A program made the translations under genes and the position numbers. A stretch of 34,585 nt of DNA from a virus. How positions within the stretch are numbered: the first letter of the stretch is position 1; the number at the start of each line of letters is the position of its first letter. Positions 19,765 to 25,259 of this stretch are shown here, piece by piece. The notes under the pieces were generated by a model that saw nothing but the letters and a program-made list of their open reading frames with translations, was not told the DNA's origin and made no database searches. The DNA is taken from positions 1-34,585 of IMG/VR virus record IMGVR_UViG_3300021165_000457; one strand, written 5' to 3'.

Positions 19765-22158
19765 TTAAAACATTATATCATCGTTAATATCTTCGCTTAC
19801 TGGCTCATTTTTATTTACAATTTCAAACCATCGCTCCCCGTTTGAATTCCCTGTAAGGTATTCAAATGTATAAAATTTAGCATACTGCTCAATCCATCTT
19901 GTAAATCTGTTTTGACTTAATTTGTATGTTTTAAAATCAGGATATTCATTTATAAAACTATTGTAATACGTTTGCTTATTGCATCTAGTATTTAATTCTA
20001 TATTTTCATTCTTACCATTTGCATCAGGTTTTGTCCATTCGTAAAATTCAAAGGATGTATTTTTAATAAACTTTCTAACTTCTAAGTTTTTAAAATCGTG
20101 TTTAGTTAATCCATTTATTAGATAAAACTGTACACATTGTATCATAAAATTATCAAATCTTGACCATTCTAAATTATCCCAATCATCAAAAAGTAAATGC
20201 CCAAATTCATCTAGTGGTGTATGTTTATAACTAAAATAGTCTGCAAGTTCTACTTCAAACTTTCTACGTTCAAATGAACCTCCAACGCCACCAATTGTAT
20301 AGTTAGTTGTTATAAGTATTTTAGGACTTTGTTGTACTGGTAATTTAATTGCATCTTGACCTTTATACTCTAAAGTAATACCCTCAGTAATTAAACTAAA
20401 TAAACTCTCAAAATTAAAGTTCTTTTTAACATCGTCAAACACTAATATTTGTGTATCAGTGCTAACAGTTTGATAAGGAAAACTTTTGGTGAACTCAAAG
20501 GTTTTCCCATCAATACTGCTAACTTTTTTCATTTGTGAAAGTGCATTCCAAAACAAACCTTTTCCACTTCCGCCATTTGGATTTTCGCTAATTGTTTCAT
20601 CATTAAAAATAATAGCTTTGTTATTTGCTGAGGTCTTAAAAGAATGCAATAAATAACCGATAACAGATTTAAAACTATTATATTTCTCTGAATCTTTACC
20701 AGCTATCATCCAAAGGAATGTTCTAAATACTGAATCGTGATGGTCTGCTGCAATAAATTCTCTATCTATTATTTGTCTTTTCCAAACAAATCCATCTAAA
20801 TCTAAGTAGTCAATAGTTGATATACTATCTTCTGTAACTTTTACAACACAATTTTTAAAGTATAAAAAGCAATCTGTTTGCGTATCTTCTTTTATTTTAA
20901 TTTCAGAACTTTCTAAAAAACTCAAAAAATCAGTTTGAAAATATTTAGGACTTGAAGCCATAAAATCATAAGGACTAAATCCAATATCTTCACGTGATAA
21001 TAAATGTTCTAAAACAAAATCCTTAATTCTTTTTTCGCTTGTTTCTTCTACTAAATTCTGTTCTATTTTTATAAAAGTAAAAGTATTTGTATCAGTTGGA
21101 AAGTATTTAAAAAAGTTGTTTTGTTGTAGCCAAAATTTATATTTATGTGGGCTTAAATTTATTTTACCTTTATCATTATAATACCAAAAATCTGAAACAG
21201 AAATATCCTCTTTTATTTCATCAATACACTTTTCAATTTCTTTTTTATCATAACTAGAATGAAAGTCTATAACTTCTTTTTTATTTTTTCCTGTTCTAAT
21301 TTGCTTTTCAATCTTTTGCTTTATAGATTTATCTTCAAAAAATTTAGTTCCAAAGCTATTAGTTTTCTTGTACGCTGAATTAATAGTATTTTGTATCTCA
21401 TTTCGTGTAAAGTCTTTTTCTTCATACTGGTAAAATGTTTGTTCAGCTACATTTTTATTAATACCAAATTCATTAAATGCAGATGCTAATCTAAATAAGT
21501 TTTTATTTCGTTCCTGACTAAAAGTATATTTTTTATTAAACCAAACCATTAAATTATTAATAATCAAATTATCTGATTTAATTGCAATACTTACATCTTT
21601 AAACCCTAAATCTTCAACTTCGGGAGTGTCTATTTTATCCCAAACTAATGAATCACTATTTACAAATAAATCAGGGTCATAACTTTCAAAACAAAATCTA
21701 CTAACATCGCTTCCACTATCATCCCAATTAGAGTGATTATAATAGTTTTTAAGGCTTTTAAAATACTCTTTGTGGTTTTCTATTTCTGTAGGGATTTTAA
21801 CAAGTGCTTTTATTCCTTTTCCACTAGGTGAAATCCAGCAACTAAAAATATAATTATCATCGGATATTGAATTTCTAAAATCAATAGCATCTTGTGAAGT
21901 ATCAAATTTATCAAAATCTAAAATACATAAACCTGAATGTTCTTTTATTCCAGCTAATGAACGATATTCAAAAACTCCATTAAAACAAACCCCAGGAAGT
22001 TTACTCTTATTTTTATCATAATCAATTTTAGGTAAAGTTCTAAGCCATTCAATTGTTTCTTTACTTTTACCCTGTTTAATACGTTCCAAACAAAATAAAA
22101 CATCTTTAGTAAAGCCGTTAGATACATCTGTAGCTTTCTTGTAAATTGTTACATTCAT
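19765..22158 (-). CDS. Primase-helicase with VirE/BT4734-like N-terminus and SF3/D5-like ATPase (797 aa)
   Basis: The N-terminal ~180 residues resemble the BT4734/VirE-type primase region of Bacteroidota mobile elements: LPKIDYDKNKSKLPGVCFNG, HSGLCILDFDKFD, SCWISPSGKGIKALVKIP, and SDVSRFCFESYDPDLFVN. A PriCT-like helical middle follows (KKYTFSQERNKNLFRLASAF, then FNEFGINKNVAEQTFYQYEE). The C-terminal half has an SF3/D5-type ATPase: Walker A NPNGGSGKGLFWNAL, Walker B DTQILVFDDV and sensor-like PKILITTNYTIGGVGGSFER. It would open and prime the replication origin; no phage DNA polymerase is visible. Its own leader carries a kissing-loop structure ending 16 nt before the ATG. Confidence 0.8.
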   Translation of the reverse strand: MNVTIYKKATDVSNGFTKDVLFCLERIKQGKSKETIEWLRTLPKIDYDKNKSKLPGVCFNGVFEYRSLAGIKEHSGLCILDFDKFDTSQDAIDFRNSISDDNYIFSCWISPSGKGIKALVKIPTEIENHKEYFKSLKNYYNHSNWDDSGSDVSRFCFESYDPDLFVNSDSLVWDKIDTPEVEDLGFKDVSIAIKSDNLIINNLMVWFNKKYTFSQERNKNLFRLASAFNEFGINKNVAEQTFYQYEEKDFTRNEIQNTINSAYKKTNSFGTKFFEDKSIKQKIEKQIRTGKNKKEVIDFHSSYDKKEIEKCIDEIKEDISVSDFWYYNDKGKINLSPHKYKFWLQQNNFFKYFPTDTNTFTFIKIEQNLVEETSEKRIKDFVLEHLLSREDIGFSPYDFMASSPKYFQTDFLSFLESSEIKIKEDTQTDCFLYFKNCVVKVTEDSISTIDYLDLDGFVWKRQIIDREFIAADHHDSVFRTFLWMIAGKDSEKYNSFKSVIGYLLHSFKTSANNKAIIFNDETISENPNGGSGKGLFWNALSQMKKVSSIDGKTFEFTKSFPYQTVSTDTQILVFDDVKKNFNFESLFSLITEGITLEYKGQDAIKLPVQQSPKILITTNYTIGGVGGSFERRKFEVELADYFSYKHTPLDEFGHLLFDDWDNLEWSRFDNFMIQCVQFYLINGLTKHDFKNLEVRKFIKNTSFEFYEWTKPDANGKNENIELNTRCNKQTYYNSFINEYPDFKTYKLSQNRFTRWIEQYAKFYTFEYLTGNSNGERWFEIVNKNEPVSEDINDDIMF

Positions 22159-22174
22159 AAATAATTAAAAAGTT

Positions 22175-22242
22175 AATGCCACTCAAACACGCTGGAAGTC
22201 GTGAAAGAGTGGCATTGATAATATTTTCTCAATAGCTTCCAG
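22175..22242 (-). ncRNA. Kissing-loop leader of the primase-helicase mRNA
   Basis: On the minus-strand RNA a 5' segment CUGGAAG (22242..22236) sits in an 8-nt loop closed by UAG/CUA. Downstream is a long hairpin: 10-bp stem AAUGCCACUC/GAGUGGCAUU (22216..22207 with 22184..22175), symmetric UUU/UUU internal loop, 4-bp stem CACG/CGUG, and 8-nt loop ACUUCCAG, which contains CUUCCAG, fully complementary to the 5' segment. The hairpin ends 16 nt before the start codon and is followed by an A/U-rich tract with UUUUU. Pairing is visible; regulation is inferred. Confidence 0.65.
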
Positions 22243-22251
22243 ACTACACGA

Positions 22252-22259
22252 CAAATATA
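22252..22259 (-). promoter_or_regulatory. -7 promoter box of the primase-helicase gene
   Basis: Minus strand TATATTTG, matching TAnnTTTG, follows an A/T-rich tract containing TTTAATTAAAA. Transcription would begin near 22247, at the very start of the structured leader. Confidence 0.6.
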
Positions 22260-22524
22260 AAAAAATATTTTAATTAAATTACATAATTATTATTATTTTT
22301 TTTATAATTACTATAATTAATAAAATAAAAAAAGTGTACTGATGCTAAACCCTATAAAATAAAGGCTTAACGGTTAAATAGTACACTTTTTCATTTTTTT
22401 TGCAACTTTTCAAAAATAAAAACAATTTTTATAAAAAAATTTATTCCTTATAATATAGTGAAGTACCTAAAAGTGTATTTGTGTACTTAAGAAAACTAAT
22501 ATTATTGACTGCTTTAGTAGTCAA
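22260..22524 (-). other. 265-bp A/T-rich noncoding region with AAGTGTAC-type repeats, possible origin
   Basis: No convincing gene is present. It holds several related words: AAAAGTGTACT (22330..22340), its inverse AGTACACTTTT (22380..22390), AAAAGTGTAT (22469..22478) and GTGTACTT (22481..22488), plus hairpins AAGTAC/GTACTT (22461..22488) and ATTGACT/AGTCAAT (22504..22525, 8-nt loop). Repeats next to a primase-helicase gene suggest an origin or operator; this is a guess from context. Confidence 0.35.
22322..22391 (-). terminator. Long-armed hairpin, possible terminator
   Basis: AAAAAGTGTACT (22329..22340) and AGTACACTTTTT (22380..22391) form a 12-bp stem around a 39-nt loop. On the minus strand it is followed by TTTTTTTATTTT, and on the plus strand by another T run, so it could terminate in either direction, second in tandem after 22525..22554. 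The large loop makes an origin element or small RNA possible. Confidence 0.45.
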
Positions 22525-22554
22525 TAAAAAAAGCCACCTTAAAAAGATGGCTTT
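22525..22554 (-). terminator. Rho-independent terminator after the SSB-like gene
   Basis: On the minus strand AAAGCCATC, TTTTTAAGG and TGGCTTTTTTTATT form a stem (AAAGCCA/TGGCTTT) with a T-rich tail. It closes the transcript of the SSB-like gene 23 bases after its stop, so that the primase gene relies on its own promoter. Confidence 0.75.
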
Positions 22555-22577
22555 GTAACTAATTTGTATGGCGTGTA

Positions 22578-23261
22578 TTAAAATTCTAAATCATCTCCAT
22601 CAGCATCATTACCTAAAGGTTCATCAAAAGTTTCCTCAACTGCTGGCTCTGACTTTACTAAGTAAGCTTTTAAGTAGGCTTCTAAAGTATCAAAACAACT
22701 ATCAGCTTGTTCATTCTCTGAATCTGATAAAGTACGTTCAAATGTAAAGTCAGGCATCGAGAATTTAACAGCTCCTTTTTTACCATCTTTTGCAGTTTTT
22801 ACAATTACCCATTCTTCAGGAAGTCGTGTTCTTGATTTTTGCGTAAACTCTCCCCAAGCTTGAACGCTTGAGCCCTTTAATTGTAAATTAGCAAGTGAGC
22901 CATCTTCAAGCATAATGTAAATGCTTTTAGTGTAGTGTCCTCCTGCTGCAACAATCTTCTCTTTAATGTCTTTGTACAGACCTTTTGCAATTTCATTTCC
23001 CTTGAAAGGTTTTACAGTCATAATTTCTTTACTGATAAACTTTACTTCGTTGGAATAAATTGAGCTTGATGTAGCATCATTCCAACCTTTTACGGTGTGC
23101 AGTTCATCGAGAACTAAAAACTTAAAAGGTAAAGGAATTGAAACTTTCTTTTGTGCTTCTTTATCGTAATATTCAAATGCTTTGTCATTTGATTTCCATT
23201 CGATAAACTTTGTTGCTGGGTTGGACTGTGGCGACTGAAACGCCTGCTTTCTGTTTGACAT
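22578..23261 (-). CDS. Probable single-stranded DNA-binding protein with acidic C-terminal tail (227 aa)
   Basis: The main domain has strand-like segments (SIPLPFKFLVLDELHTVKGW, YSNEVKFISKEIMTVKPFKG, HYTKSIYIMLEDGSLANLQL) with aromatics that could contact ssDNA, and a basic patch (QKSRTRLPEEWVIVKTAKDG). The C-terminus is highly acidic and ends GNDADGDDLEF, a form shared by bacterial SSB (DDDIPF) and T7 gp2.5, where the tail recruits partners. Size and early-operon position fit a phage ssDNA-binding protein. It is expressed alone: own promoter, structured leader, strong terminator. The leader has a compact pseudoknot and A/U-rich tract like T4 gene 32 autoregulation. I have no OB-fold search result. 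Confidence 0.55.
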   Translation of the reverse strand: MSNRKQAFQSPQSNPATKFIEWKSNDKAFEYYDKEAQKKVSIPLPFKFLVLDELHTVKGWNDATSSSIYSNEVKFISKEIMTVKPFKGNEIAKGLYKDIKEKIVAAGGHYTKSIYIMLEDGSLANLQLKGSSVQAWGEFTQKSRTRLPEEWVIVKTAKDGKKGAVKFSMPDFTFERTLSDSENEQADSCFDTLEAYLKAYLVKSEPAVEETFDEPLGNDADGDDLEF

Positions 23262-23277
23262 AATATTTATTTTTTAT

Positions 23278-23309
23278 GGCTTGAAATTACGATGCCCAAG
23301 CCTTGCATC
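23278..23309 (-). ncRNA. H-type pseudoknot leader of the SSB-like mRNA
   Basis: On the minus-strand RNA: GAUGC (23309..23305), AA, GGCUUG (23302..23297), G, GCAUC (23295..23291), GUAAUUU, CAAGCC (23283..23278). GAUGC pairs with GCAUC, and GGCUUG with CAAGCC, giving a compact H-type pseudoknot with loops of 2, 1 and 7 nt. It is followed by AUAAAAAAUAAAUAUU and the ATG, 16 nt away. A pseudoknot plus A/U-rich tract before an SSB-like gene matches the T4 gene 32 operator layout. Confidence 0.7.
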
Positions 23310-23324
23310 TGTTATTATGAATTG

Positions 23325-23332
23325 CAAATATA
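23325..23332 (-). promoter_or_regulatory. -7 promoter box of the SSB-like gene
   Basis: Minus strand TATATTTG matches TAnnTTTG. It overlaps the end region of the 52-aa gene and would start the pseudoknot leader. No clear TTG at -33. Confidence 0.55.
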
Positions 23333-23337
23333 CAAAA

Positions 23338-23496
23338 TTAAATCCATTTAATTATTGCTAAAAGACTATTATTAAAACTAATTATATTAACATCTTTTAC
23401 TTCTGCATCTATATGGTTATTTACTGCATTATTTACTTTTACTTCAAATTCTTCTAAAGTATCATTTGAGTATTTTTGTATTATTTCTATGTACAT
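23338..23496 (-). CDS. Small protein, Cse60-like pattern (52 aa)
   Basis: ATG 23496..23494 begins MYIEIIQKYSNDTLEEFEVK and ends at TAA 23340..23338, just before the -7 box of the next gene. The pattern (short strand, helix LEEFEVKVNNAVNNHI, strand DVNIISFNNSLLAIIKW) resembles the Cse60 group of tiny proteins found in phages and Gram-positive bacteria, but the match is from memory. It follows the 145-aa gene by 11 bases, so both are likely on one message. Confidence 0.5.
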   Translation of the reverse strand: MYIEIIQKYSNDTLEEFEVKVNNAVNNHIDAEVKDVNIISFNNSLLAIIKWI

Positions 23497-23507
23497 AATT
23501 TTTAATT

Positions 23508-23945
23508 TTAAAATGATATTGCTAATGATGATTTTCTCGGAGTAGTTGAAACCTTTGGCACTTCATTACCGTATGCATCAAACATATCCTGTTTAAGAGC
23601 AAGTTTTAATAATTCAGCCCTATCGTCTAATTCTTTTTTTATAGTGGCGTAAATTGCATCTTCTGCATAGTTAATAGTATCGCCACCACTTCTAAATGTA
23701 CCTTTTAATCCGTATGCTTCAAAGTTCTCTTGTGGTAATACTTTTAGCAGTTCAGTATTAATAATATCTAATGCTTCGCCCATTCTTTTAGCTTGAGCTA
23801 ATAACTCAAATTTGTCAATTTCTCCAGCATCTAAAATCTCTTTAATAAAACTTTGACTAGATAACTGGATTTCCTTTTTAGTTGGAAGGAAGTTAGATGT
23901 TTGAACTTCCTGTTCACGCATCATAAAAAATAAATCTTTACTCAT
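23508..23945 (-). CDS. Hypothetical early protein (145 aa)
   Basis: A mainly helical protein: SKDLFFMMREQEVQTSNFLP, EIQLSSQSFIKEILDAGEID, FELLAQAKRMGEALDIINTE, then a mid Gly/Arg patch (KGTFRSGGDTINYAEDAIYA). The C-terminal Pro/Ser-rich tail ends SLAISF. I recognise no family; it may be a DNA-replication or recombination accessory. I chose ATG 23945. A TTG at 23972 would start inside the leader region, 17 nt from the hairpin. Its leader carries the same loop-complementarity design as the primase and SSB-like genes. Confidence 0.65.
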   Translation of the reverse strand: MSKDLFFMMREQEVQTSNFLPTKKEIQLSSQSFIKEILDAGEIDKFELLAQAKRMGEALDIINTELLKVLPQENFEAYGLKGTFRSGGDTINYAEDAIYATIKKELDDRAELLKLALKQDMFDAYGNEVPKVSTTPRKSSLAISF

Positions 23946-23962
23946 ATTGTTATAAATTAAAA

Positions 23963-24020
23963 ACTCTCCCAATGACCGCCAAGTGCAAAGAGAGAGTAGT
24001 TATAGTTTCAATCTTGGCGG
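23963..24020 (-). ncRNA. Loop-complementary (pseudoknot) leader of the 145-aa gene
   Basis: On the minus-strand RNA the 5' segment CCGCCAAG (24020..24013), flanked by AAU/AUU, is followed by hairpin ACUCUC/GAGAGU (23997..23992 with 23968..23963). The 23-nt loop contains CUUGGCGG (23983..23976), complementary to the 5' segment over 8 bp. The hairpin ends 17 nt before the ATG and is followed by UUUUUAAUUU. Sequence differs from the other leaders, but the design is the same. Confidence 0.65.
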
Positions 24021-24030
24021 ATTTCTTTAG

Positions 24031-24038
24031 CAAATATA
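24031..24038 (-). promoter_or_regulatory. -7 promoter box of the 145-aa gene
   Basis: Minus strand TATATTTG matches TAnnTTTG. A TTG lies 15 nt upstream, slightly closer than the usual -33 spacing. It sits just after the end of the 50-aa gene. Confidence 0.55.
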
Positions 24039-24042
24039 ATAA

Positions 24043-24195
24043 TTAAATCGATACAACATCTAATTTTTGCCAACATTTTGACATATTGTATCCGCTCCAG
24101 TAAAGCTCATACTTAAAAATTTGCTGTTGTGTAGTTTTGTTGTAAAATTCATATCCTCTAACGGACTTGCAAAATTCTAGGAATGATTGATTCAT
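24043..24195 (-). CDS. Small hypothetical protein (50 aa)
   Basis: ATG 24195..24193 overlaps the stop of the 31-aa gene (ATGA). The product starts MNQSFLEFCKSVRGYEFYNK and contains a Trp/Tyr/Cys-rich C-terminal segment (FKYELYWSGYNMSKCWQKLD). It stops at TAA 24045..24043, upstream of the next promoter. No family is recognised. Confidence 0.55.
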   Translation of the reverse strand: MNQSFLEFCKSVRGYEFYNKTTQQQIFKYELYWSGYNMSKCWQKLDVVSI

Positions 24196-24287
24196 TTTAA
24201 TATTGATTTTATAAAGTTTATTATTCCATAAATTACTGTAAATATAATCCCTATTGAGATTCCGATTATTATTGTGTGGTAGATCAT
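24192..24287 (-). CDS. Tiny single-pass membrane protein (31 aa)
   Basis: ATG 24287..24285 overlaps the TGA of the 57-aa gene (ATGA) and its own TGA overlaps the next ATG. The product MIYHTIIIGISIGIIFTVIY is a transmembrane helix with a short tail ending NFIKSILK. Overlaps on both sides support it. It could be an early host-membrane modulator; no family is recognised. Confidence 0.5.
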   Translation of the reverse strand: MIYHTIIIGISIGIIFTVIYGIINFIKSILK

Positions 24288-24457
24288 AGCTTGATTTTAA
24301 ATTGTTCGATACTTTGTCCTGTTGTAATACAGAATTTAAGTTTCTGACTTACATCGTTTATAACCTCTAATTGTTCTCTTACTGATGAACCGCTTTCAAT
24401 TAGTAAAGCTACAACCTGCATTGCTAGGTTGTGAGTTCTTTGTTGCTTTGGTGTCAT
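24284..24457 (-). CDS. Small hypothetical protein with MTPK start (57 aa)
   Basis: I chose ATG 24457 (MTPKQQRTHNLAMQVVALLI), four bases after the upstream gene. A farther start at 24502 would run back into that gene. The product is helical: LAMQVVALLIESGSSVREQL, then EVINDVSQKLKFC. The ATGACACC start shares its first bases with three other early genes. No function recognised. Confidence 0.5.
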   Translation of the reverse strand: MTPKQQRTHNLAMQVVALLIESGSSVREQLEVINDVSQKLKFCITTGQSIEQFKIKL

Positions 24458-24461
24458 AATT

Positions 24462-24653
24462 TTAAAGTTCTTTACCGCATTGACTGCAGTGGTTAATATC
24501 AAATTCTAATAAAAAATGTTCTTGTTTTAGCTTGAAGTACTTTTCAAGTGTACCAAAATATCTTACTGAGTTTACTAAATCTATTTCAGGATATTCCTTT
24601 TGAATAGTAGCCATTTTACGCTCTAGTGATTTCAATTTTTGCTTTGGTGTCAT
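24462..24653 (-). CDS. Small protein with C-terminal zinc-knuckle-like motif (63 aa)
   Basis: Starts MTPKQKLKSLERKMATIQKE and ends FDINHCSQCGKEL, where HCxxCG suggests half of a zinc knuckle. Helical N-terminus. The start codon region (ATGACACCAAAG) matches the 57-aa gene next to it. No family recognised. Confidence 0.55.
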   Translation of the reverse strand: MTPKQKLKSLERKMATIQKEYPEIDLVNSVRYFGTLEKYFKLKQEHFLLEFDINHCSQCGKEL

Positions 24654-24666
24654 AACTTGTGTTTAT

Positions 24667-25164
24667 TTAATAAATACCTAATTTAATTTTAGAAATTATT
24701 GTTTGAGATAAATTAAATTTTAATGCAATATCTTTTTGAAGAATATCTTTATTTAATATTTTTTTTATTTCTATTAATTGATTTTCACTTACTTTTTTAT
24801 TTATTTTTTGAAGTCCTGTTTTATATGAATGTATAGTATTTTCACTTCTAGTACACCACTCTAAATTTTCAAGTCTGTTATCAGTTTTGATTCCATTAAT
24901 ATGATTTATTTCTTTTTTATTTAAAGAATTTAATATAAAATTTATACCTACTAACCTATGTATTTTGTACATTTTATATTTATATCCATCAAATAAAGTA
25001 ACACTATAATATCCAAAAATACATTTATTAGGATTTAAAATTTTTTCTTTTTTTAAAGCTTTTCCACCATGATAATGATTAACAAATCTTTGTAAACTTT
25101 TTACTCTTCCTAAATTACTAATTTCATAATTAGGATAATCTTTAATGCTTTTCCAAACTTCCAT
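24667..25164 (-). CDS. HNH homing-type endonuclease with NUMOD4 domain (165 aa)
   Basis: NUMOD4 is at the N-terminus (VWKSIKDYPNYEISNLGRVK). The HNH fold follows with HRLVGINFILNSLNKKEINH, the active-site His in INHINGIKTDNRLENLEWCT, and RSENTIHSYKTG. A C-terminal HTH-like part (DILQKDIALKFNLSQTIISK) fits NUMOD-type DNA targeting. These are free-standing mobile nucleases common in phages. I chose ATG 25164 because a TTG at 25179 lies inside the leader stem. It has its own promoter and a kissing-loop leader like the replication genes, which is unusual for a mobile element. Confidence 0.8.
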   Translation of the reverse strand: MEVWKSIKDYPNYEISNLGRVKSLQRFVNHYHGGKALKKEKILNPNKCIFGYYSVTLFDGYKYKMYKIHRLVGINFILNSLNKKEINHINGIKTDNRLENLEWCTRSENTIHSYKTGLQKINKKVSENQLIEIKKILNKDILQKDIALKFNLSQTIISKIKLGIY

Positions 25165-25173
25165 AATACAAAA

Positions 25174-25248
25174 AACCAACCGAAAAAAGGGACTAGACTT
25201 TTAACGATTGGTTATTTATTAAATTATTAATATCGCTAGTCCTCGATA
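25174..25248 (-). ncRNA. Kissing-loop leader of the HNH endonuclease mRNA
   Basis: On the minus-strand RNA a first hairpin UAUCG/CGAUA (25248..25231) has 8-nt loop AGGACUAG. A second hairpin has 9-bp stem AACCAAUCG/CGGUUGGUU (25213..25205 with 25182..25174, one GU), inner stem AAAAG/CUUUU and 8-nt loop UCUAGUCC. GGACUAG and CUAGUCC are 7-bp complementary, so the two loops could kiss. The second stem runs into UUUUUU, so it may also act as a terminator. It ends 9 nt before the ATG. Confidence 0.65.
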
Positions 25249-25251
25249 AAG

Positions 25252-25259
25252 CAAAGATA
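25252..25259 (-). promoter_or_regulatory. -7 promoter box of the HNH gene
   Basis: Minus strand TATCTTTG matches TAnnTTTG, directly before the kissing-loop leader. It follows the 35-aa membrane gene. Confidence 0.55.

Follow-up and report, generated by a model that had tools for sequence, protein, structure and literature searches.

What can four leaders of one phage share when their sequences differ, and do they form one family? The question is raised by IMG/VR virus record IMGVR_UViG_3300021165_000457, a stretch of 34.6 kb (34,585 nucleotides; the window, below) with 30% G+C, whose minus strand carries all long genes and whose relatives are Flavobacterium-type phages. A first-pass annotation had described one leader fold for four early mRNAs, those of a primase gene, an HNH endonuclease gene and two genes called X and Y here, with segments in the order A-B-A'-B' and a 5' segment that pairs with the loop of a hairpin. 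That these mRNAs are early we infer from the functions of the downstream genes. The A-B-A'-B' order is present in all four leaders and exceeds chance, and a conserved fold with a non-conserved sequence is indeed found. A single family is nevertheless ruled out, given that the gene X leader differs in topology, tail and partner gene. Two unrelated RNA families are shown by the comparison of sequences: the kissing leaders (K-leaders) of the HNH gene, gene Y and the primase gene, and the pseudoknot of gene X.

Four leaders, two RNA families

A K-leader consists of a 5' hairpin (H1), a linker, a terminator-like hairpin B:B' with apical loop A', a U-run and the ATG. Segment A (6-10 nt), in the loop of H1, is complementary to A', and this pairing is the kiss. 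H1 presents a stem of 3-8 bp and a loop of mostly 6-9 nt; in some relatives the 5' end is single-stranded instead. The second hairpin presents a B of 7-15 bp, usually a purine-rich internal loop (AGUA/GAA, UGAA/GGAU and GGA/GAA recur), and an inner stem, mostly 3-5 bp long, that carries the complementary loop. Beyond these recurrent purines, no sequence is common to all K-leaders. The A-to-A' distance is 36-41 nt in most, whatever the length of B, and 29 nt in the gene Y leader of the window; where it is 49-54 nt, most have an extra linker hairpin. T accounts for 60-81% at +1..+8 past B', without selection for T. The ATG lies 9-20 nt past the U-run hairpin, and an ATG-started open reading frame (ORF) follows 39 of the 47 unique K-leaders.

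Start sites were predicted by assuming the known sigma-A spacing: the Flavobacterium -7 box runs from T-12 to G-5, so the start site lies 5 nt past the final G (PMC6847099). On this prediction, the first paired nucleotide of K-leaders is most often +1 or +2. The features of the four loci are as follows.

25252-25259, minus strand: -7 box TATCTTTG of the HNH gene promoter, predicted +1 at 25247
25174-25248, minus strand: K-leader of the HNH gene, from sequence and shuffle test
25247-25232, minus strand: H1 of the HNH leader, loop AGGACTAG
25213-25174, minus strand: second hairpin of the HNH leader (B 25213-25205, inner stem AAAAG/CTTTT, A' 25196-25190, B' 25182-25174), then a U-run
24667-25164, minus strand: HNH homing endonuclease (NUMOD4 and HNH_3)
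24031-24038, minus strand: -7 box TATATTTG of the gene Y promoter, predicted +1 at 24026
23963-24023, minus strand: K-leader of gene Y, H1 AAT-CCGCCAAG-ATT at 24023-24010
23997-23963, minus strand: second hairpin of the gene Y leader (B 23997-23990, A' 23983-23976, B' 23970-23963), then a U-run
23508-23945, minus strand: gene Y, 145 aa, without Pfam or PHROG family; several sequence-unrelated K-leaders among its homologs
23325-23332, minus strand: -7 box TATATTTG of the gene X promoter
23278-23309, minus strand: H-type pseudoknot of the gene X leader (S1 23309-23305/23295-23291, L1 AA, S2 23302-23296/23284-23278, L3 23290-23285)
23262-23277, minus strand: unstructured A/U tract with UAAA repeats, from the sequence, reaching the start codon of gene X (counterpart of the tract for cooperative binding of gp32, PMC535899)
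22578-23261, minus strand: gene X, probable single-stranded DNA-binding protein (SSB), phrog_6706, acidic DDLEF tail
22252-22259, minus strand: -7 box TATATTTG of the primase gene promoter, predicted +1 at 22247
22175-22246, minus strand: K-leader of the primase gene, H1 TAG-TCTGGAAG-CTA at 22246-22233
22216-22175, minus strand: second hairpin of the primase leader (B 22216-22207, inner stem CACG/CGTG, A' 22198-22192, B' 22184-22175), then CTTTTT
19765-22158, minus strand: primase/helicase (BT4734-like N-terminal domain, PriCT_1)

The leader positions given by the annotation (22242..22175, 23309..23278, 24020..23963 and 25248..25174) were verified, as was the TAnnTTTG box before each leader. 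The claimed pairing of 7, 5, 8 and 7 nt corresponds to CTGGAAG (22242-22236) with CTTCCAG (22198-22192; 7 bp) in the primase leader, GATGC (23309-23305) with GCATC (23295-23291; 5 bp) in that of gene X, CCGCCAAG (24020-24013) with CTTGGCGG (23983-23976; 8 bp) in that of gene Y, and GGACTAG (25242-25236) with CTAGTCC (25196-25190; 7 bp) in that of the HNH gene. Leader ends had been placed 16-17 nt before the ATG in three cases and 9 nt in the fourth, and the measured gaps agree, with 9 (HNH), 17 (gene Y), 16 (gene X) and 16 nt (primase). U-runs follow three of the four leaders, as noted, the gene X leader having none. The description of an 8-nt hairpin loop with a kissing partner suits the HNH, primase and gene Y leaders, whereas gene X has a compact H-type pseudoknot; likewise, the proposed family of cis-acting RNAs whose 5' segment pairs with a hairpin loop is borne out, with the gene X leader outside it. 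Given the assumed sigma-A spacing, the RNA 5' end is predicted at or before the 5' segment and not downstream of it.

Chance was assessed with dinucleotide shuffles of the HNH, gene Y and primase leaders, each taken from its promoter box through B'. The observed A+B score was matched by 1 of 500 shuffles for HNH and by none of 500 for gene Y and for the primase; none of 2000 matched the gene X pseudoknot. The three kissing leaders of the window phage present scores of 18, 22 and 18 between own loop and 5' segment, and cross-pairs score at most 10.5. Far stronger support than that of the shuffles comes from covariation and own-pair complementarity in relatives.

Selection on the kiss and distribution of K-leaders

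A MAFFT alignment of gene Y leaders (A5) was unusable, given the sequences are unrelated, and a permutation test was substituted for it. The sole criteria for picking leaders were a promoter, a hairpin stem, a T-run and an ATG, with the kiss ignored, which yielded 303 candidates, reduced to 74 at less than 75% similarity. The complementarity between own loop and 5' segment presents a mean of 16.5, against 10.9 ± 0.44 for permuted pairs (z = 12.6), and a score of at least 15 is reached by 70% of own pairs and 13.8% of mismatched ones. In the alignable K-leader class b (A4), covariation is 0.534, against 0.149 ± 0.023 for shuffled and a maximum of 0.162 for slid alignments; both sides changed in 14 of 21 pairs, and the kissing helix is 83.7% paired, a value lowered by rows misaligned by about 1 nt in A. 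Covariation of the paired segments in homologous leaders, which had been set beforehand as the refutation test, is strong.

Leaders of gene Y homologs and primase homologs keep the K-leader layout with entirely different letters. In comparison with the relative L085, gene Y of the window is 93% identical from 23963 on, and the upstream DNA is 93% identical as far as the point, near 24043, where the preceding ORF ends; the intervening promoter and leader are replaced, and L085 has an extra small ORF. This swap between conserved flanks shows the K-leader moving as a module. Folds that are kept while letters vary freely argue that both leader types are real, undescribed switches. Rfam gave no match at the gathering threshold and none relevant up to E = 10 for either type, and a literature search, confined to part of the published record, found no description of K-leaders or of the gene X leader pseudoknot. 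The K-leader fold itself is solid.

Nine further phage records near the window have approximately 1-4 K-leaders each, and a few of the listed hits are A/T-rich and probably due to chance. In 1.009 Mb of Flavobacterium host DNA there were 3 hits, each of them at the threshold score and lacking the full layout; K-leaders are essentially absent from host DNA. A covariance model (R1) had no match in 150 Flavobacterium genomes, with 28 candidates per genome scored and no positive control; given these limits, the host scan by the K-leader detector is preferred. When four isolates were scanned, mumin6-1 presented two convincing K-leaders, before the gp034 endonuclease and before gp037, and the scan of P12024S, Leef_1 and lotta8-2 was negative.

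Judged by sequence, the genes after K-leaders include primase-helicases, gene Y, HNH and GIY-YIG endonucleases, a helicase and a RecT-like protein. The K-leader is not tied to gene Y, since the gene Y homologs of lillamy, mumin and tooticki phages lack the leader. HNH genes starting with MEVWK or MEVWR and GIY-YIG genes starting with MIGIYKIT often have their own promoter and K-leader (24667-25164 in the window; L089, L028, L121 and L423:11674), as if the K-leader travelled with the homing endonuclease.

Possible mechanisms of K-leaders

A stable stem with an immediate U-run, as in intrinsic terminators, is present in K-leaders. An antiterminator sharing strands with the terminator is absent: A and A' lie outside B and B' in the inspected leaders, and since A:A' and B:B' share no strands, a K-leader is not a classical mutually exclusive terminator/antiterminator. 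The U-run, the regular geometry and the position close to the promoter lead us to favor, tentatively, cis control of transcription through the leader, by attenuation (which had been suggested, and is possible) or by antitermination resembling that of HK022 put RNA. The 5' end of the nascent K-leader would dock on the half-made terminator hairpin before B' emerges; docking would close B into a loop, so that B:B' would be unable to wind in time and polymerase would pass the U-run. Alternatively, the docked RNA would stay on RNA polymerase, as with put, and the U-run would be passed in that way. Were docking prevented by some signal or factor, B:B' would form freely and transcription would stop before the gene. 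It is conceivable, though held with more doubt, that K-leaders are a new, shape-only class of phage cis-regulatory RNA whose 5' end kisses the terminator hairpin and sets read-through into early operons, with private, interchangeable kissing sequences per gene preventing cross-talk within a phage.

HK022 put RNA has approximately 70 nt and two stem-loops, and adjoins an early promoter (PMC9378689). K-leaders are similar in length, in their two stem-loops and in standing right after an early phage promoter. However, put is conserved in sequence and acts on E. coli polymerase, whereas K-leaders keep only the fold, present no conserved RNA-polymerase-contact nucleotides of the put type, and add the kissing interaction and a terminal U-run hairpin. 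With classical attenuators and riboswitch platforms they share a terminator-like hairpin whose U-run lies close to the start codon, yet they lack a strand-sharing antiterminator, a leader peptide and a conserved aptamer.

Several points weigh against transcription control. Transcription starts and termination at the leaders are predicted from sequence. A:A' is compatible with B:B', which means that nothing in the layout makes them exclusive, and the topological reasoning above is our own. The U-run, which lies close to the start codon, could have a role in translation instead. Each K-leader found sits after a promoter, but the search required a promoter box and would miss K-leaders without one. 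Finally, the primase leaders of the clade L158-L204 form a different pseudoknotted leader, with no U-run right after the last stem.

The main rival, given that pairing begins at the first nucleotides, is protection of the 5' end: the docked nucleotides would be hidden from pyrophosphohydrolase and RNases, and phage mRNAs would outlive those of the host. Pairing from +1 or +2, conservation of structure without sequence and restriction to phages fit this reading, as does the requirement of RppH and RNase E for single-stranded 5' ends (PMC3997798). It leaves the U-run and the fixed ATG spacing unexplained, however, and a plain 5' hairpin should suffice, and we consider it doubtful. The data do not decide between transcription control and 5'-end protection.

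Somewhat less likely still, K-leaders may be bound by a phage or host protein that recognizes the kissing shape rather than the letters and affects many early mRNAs at once, in translation or in stability. In ColE1, the fully complementary loops of RNAI and RNAII vary in sequence and are read by shape by Rom/Rop; there the pairing is in trans between two RNAs, whereas both loops of a K-leader are in one leader. Loops of 6-8 nt that are fully paired, as in known kissing complexes, purine internal loops that suggest a protein or tertiary docking site, and occurrence before many different genes are in agreement with a protein site. Yet a candidate protein was not found, and the Rom/Rop parallel is general knowledge. 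It is very improbable that the U-run hairpin mainly terminates the upstream gene or acts as an insulator, with the 5' complementarity a by-product: B:B' with its U-run does resemble an intrinsic terminator, but the permutation result, the A:A' covariation and the regular A-A' spacing show selection on the kiss, and the window primase leader has separate U-run hairpins upstream of its promoter.

Further observations concern the primase loci. In the L158-L204 leaders, 5' AAAGGGG pairs with CCCCTT, and this helix covaries, being AGGCAG/CTGCCT in L196 and ATAGGGG/CCCCTAT in L172; these leaders also contain a block of conserved sequence, GTTGTCGGAGGCATCCAC, and a hairpin whose loop could base-pair with a repeat immediately before the ATG. 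Between gene X and the primase promoter, window positions 22320-22540 are A/T-rich, with GTACAC/AGGTACT motifs and a long hairpin GTGTACT...AGTACAC, and constitute a candidate replication origin. At the same place, distant primase loci (L164, L165, L196 and L199) have iteron-like tandem repeats AGGTACACATTT or GGGGCAGATT.

The gene X leader and its protein

The gene X pseudoknot is a compact 5/2/7/0/6 structure (S1 of 5 bp, L1 of 2 nt, S2 of 7 bp, L2 of 0 and L3 of 6 nt), followed by AUAAAAAAUAAAUAUU-AUG. Among 49 distinct leaders of gene X homologs (alignment A2), 98.8% of pair cells are standard, both sides changed in 10 of 12 pairs, and covariation is 0.676, against 0.177 ± 0.017 for shuffled and 0.175 for the best slid alignment. 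In 15 distant homologs (A8), whose sequence is almost unrelated (GCCC-AA-GCGGTCA-GGGC...), 100% of cells are paired, with a covariation of 0.610 against 0.142 ± 0.031 for shuffled alignments. Homolog leaders have an unstructured tract rich in UAAA/UUAAA between pseudoknot and start codon (AUAAAUAAAUA..., AUUUAAA...). In L307 and L308, a pseudoknot of this type starts a few nt past the apparent 3' end of a tRNA gene, upstream of an SSB-like gene.

The protein family, phrog_6706, is of unknown function. Its acidic C-terminal tail is DDLEF in the window and DDLPF, DDIPF, DEVPF or EDMPF in distant relatives, and an acidic tip of the DDLPF type is typical of SSBs. A profile of 50 homologs searched against the PDB had as sole matches, at marginal E = 0.067 and 0.18, the lactococcal protein Orf34p2, which is an SSB (PMC3208561). 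These results make gene X a probable, putative ssDNA-binding protein. A first AlphaFold run with a shallow alignment (pLDDT 44) was discarded, and a deeper alignment yielded a confident model with pLDDT 87. Gene Y lies directly upstream of gene X in the window and in several relatives. The phrog_6706 family also occurs in Mycobacterium phages, beside polymerase/primase genes; in phage Gaia, the only such leader read, the pseudoknot is absent.

The gene 32 operator of T4 and RB69 consists of a 5' pseudoknot and a UAAA/UUAAA tract (PMC535899). The gene X leader is similar, with a 5' H-type pseudoknot and an unstructured UAAA/UUAAA tract reaching the start codon of a probable SSB gene. By this analogy, the gene X protein would bind the pseudoknot of its own leader and would then spread cooperatively along the UAAA tract, shutting off its own translation as T4 gp32 does, and the leader is probably a gp32-like autogenous translational operator. 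The two differ in that gene X belongs to an unrelated SSB family in phages of another host phylum, that its pseudoknot stands 15-20 nt from the ATG without a Shine-Dalgarno, and that repression here would rest on the likeness to gene 32. Some results count against the operator: among solved structures, the gene X model matches the phiC31 recombination directionality factor best (E 0.015, TM 0.36), which leaves an oligonucleotide-binding (OB) fold unproven; the fold search with the model gave no OB-fold SSB; and RNA binding by the protein is a proposal by analogy.

That the leader is instead a ligand-binding riboswitch, as an H-type pseudoknot resembling preQ1-I, or a structural stabiliser is quite unlikely. 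It does share its general topology with small H-type riboswitches, but binding-pocket nucleotides are not conserved apart from stem ends, an Rfam match is absent, and the pseudoknot is tied to one SSB-like gene family across wide divergence. The STAXI motif consists of pseudoknots near SSB and other DNA-handling genes (Weinberg 2010, PMC2864571); it differs in occurring as two or three repeats, often with UUCG tetraloops, in Enterobacteriales, whereas gene X has a single leader pseudoknot.

Taken together, two leader families, an operator for gene X and transcription control by K-leaders form our best explanation, which as a whole falls just short of evenly balanced. Elements in which nearly every letter can change are missed by sequence-based discovery with Rfam or covariance models. 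The K-leader idea is directly testable, since the cultured Flavobacterium phage mumin6-1 carries two of them. The gene X operator, if true, would represent an autogenous switch of the gp32 kind in a distant group of phages. Gene control in Bacteroidetes phages is hardly known, and K-leaders, at 1-4 per related phage genome examined and placed before genes for replication and homing endonucleases, would make up a main layer of that control.

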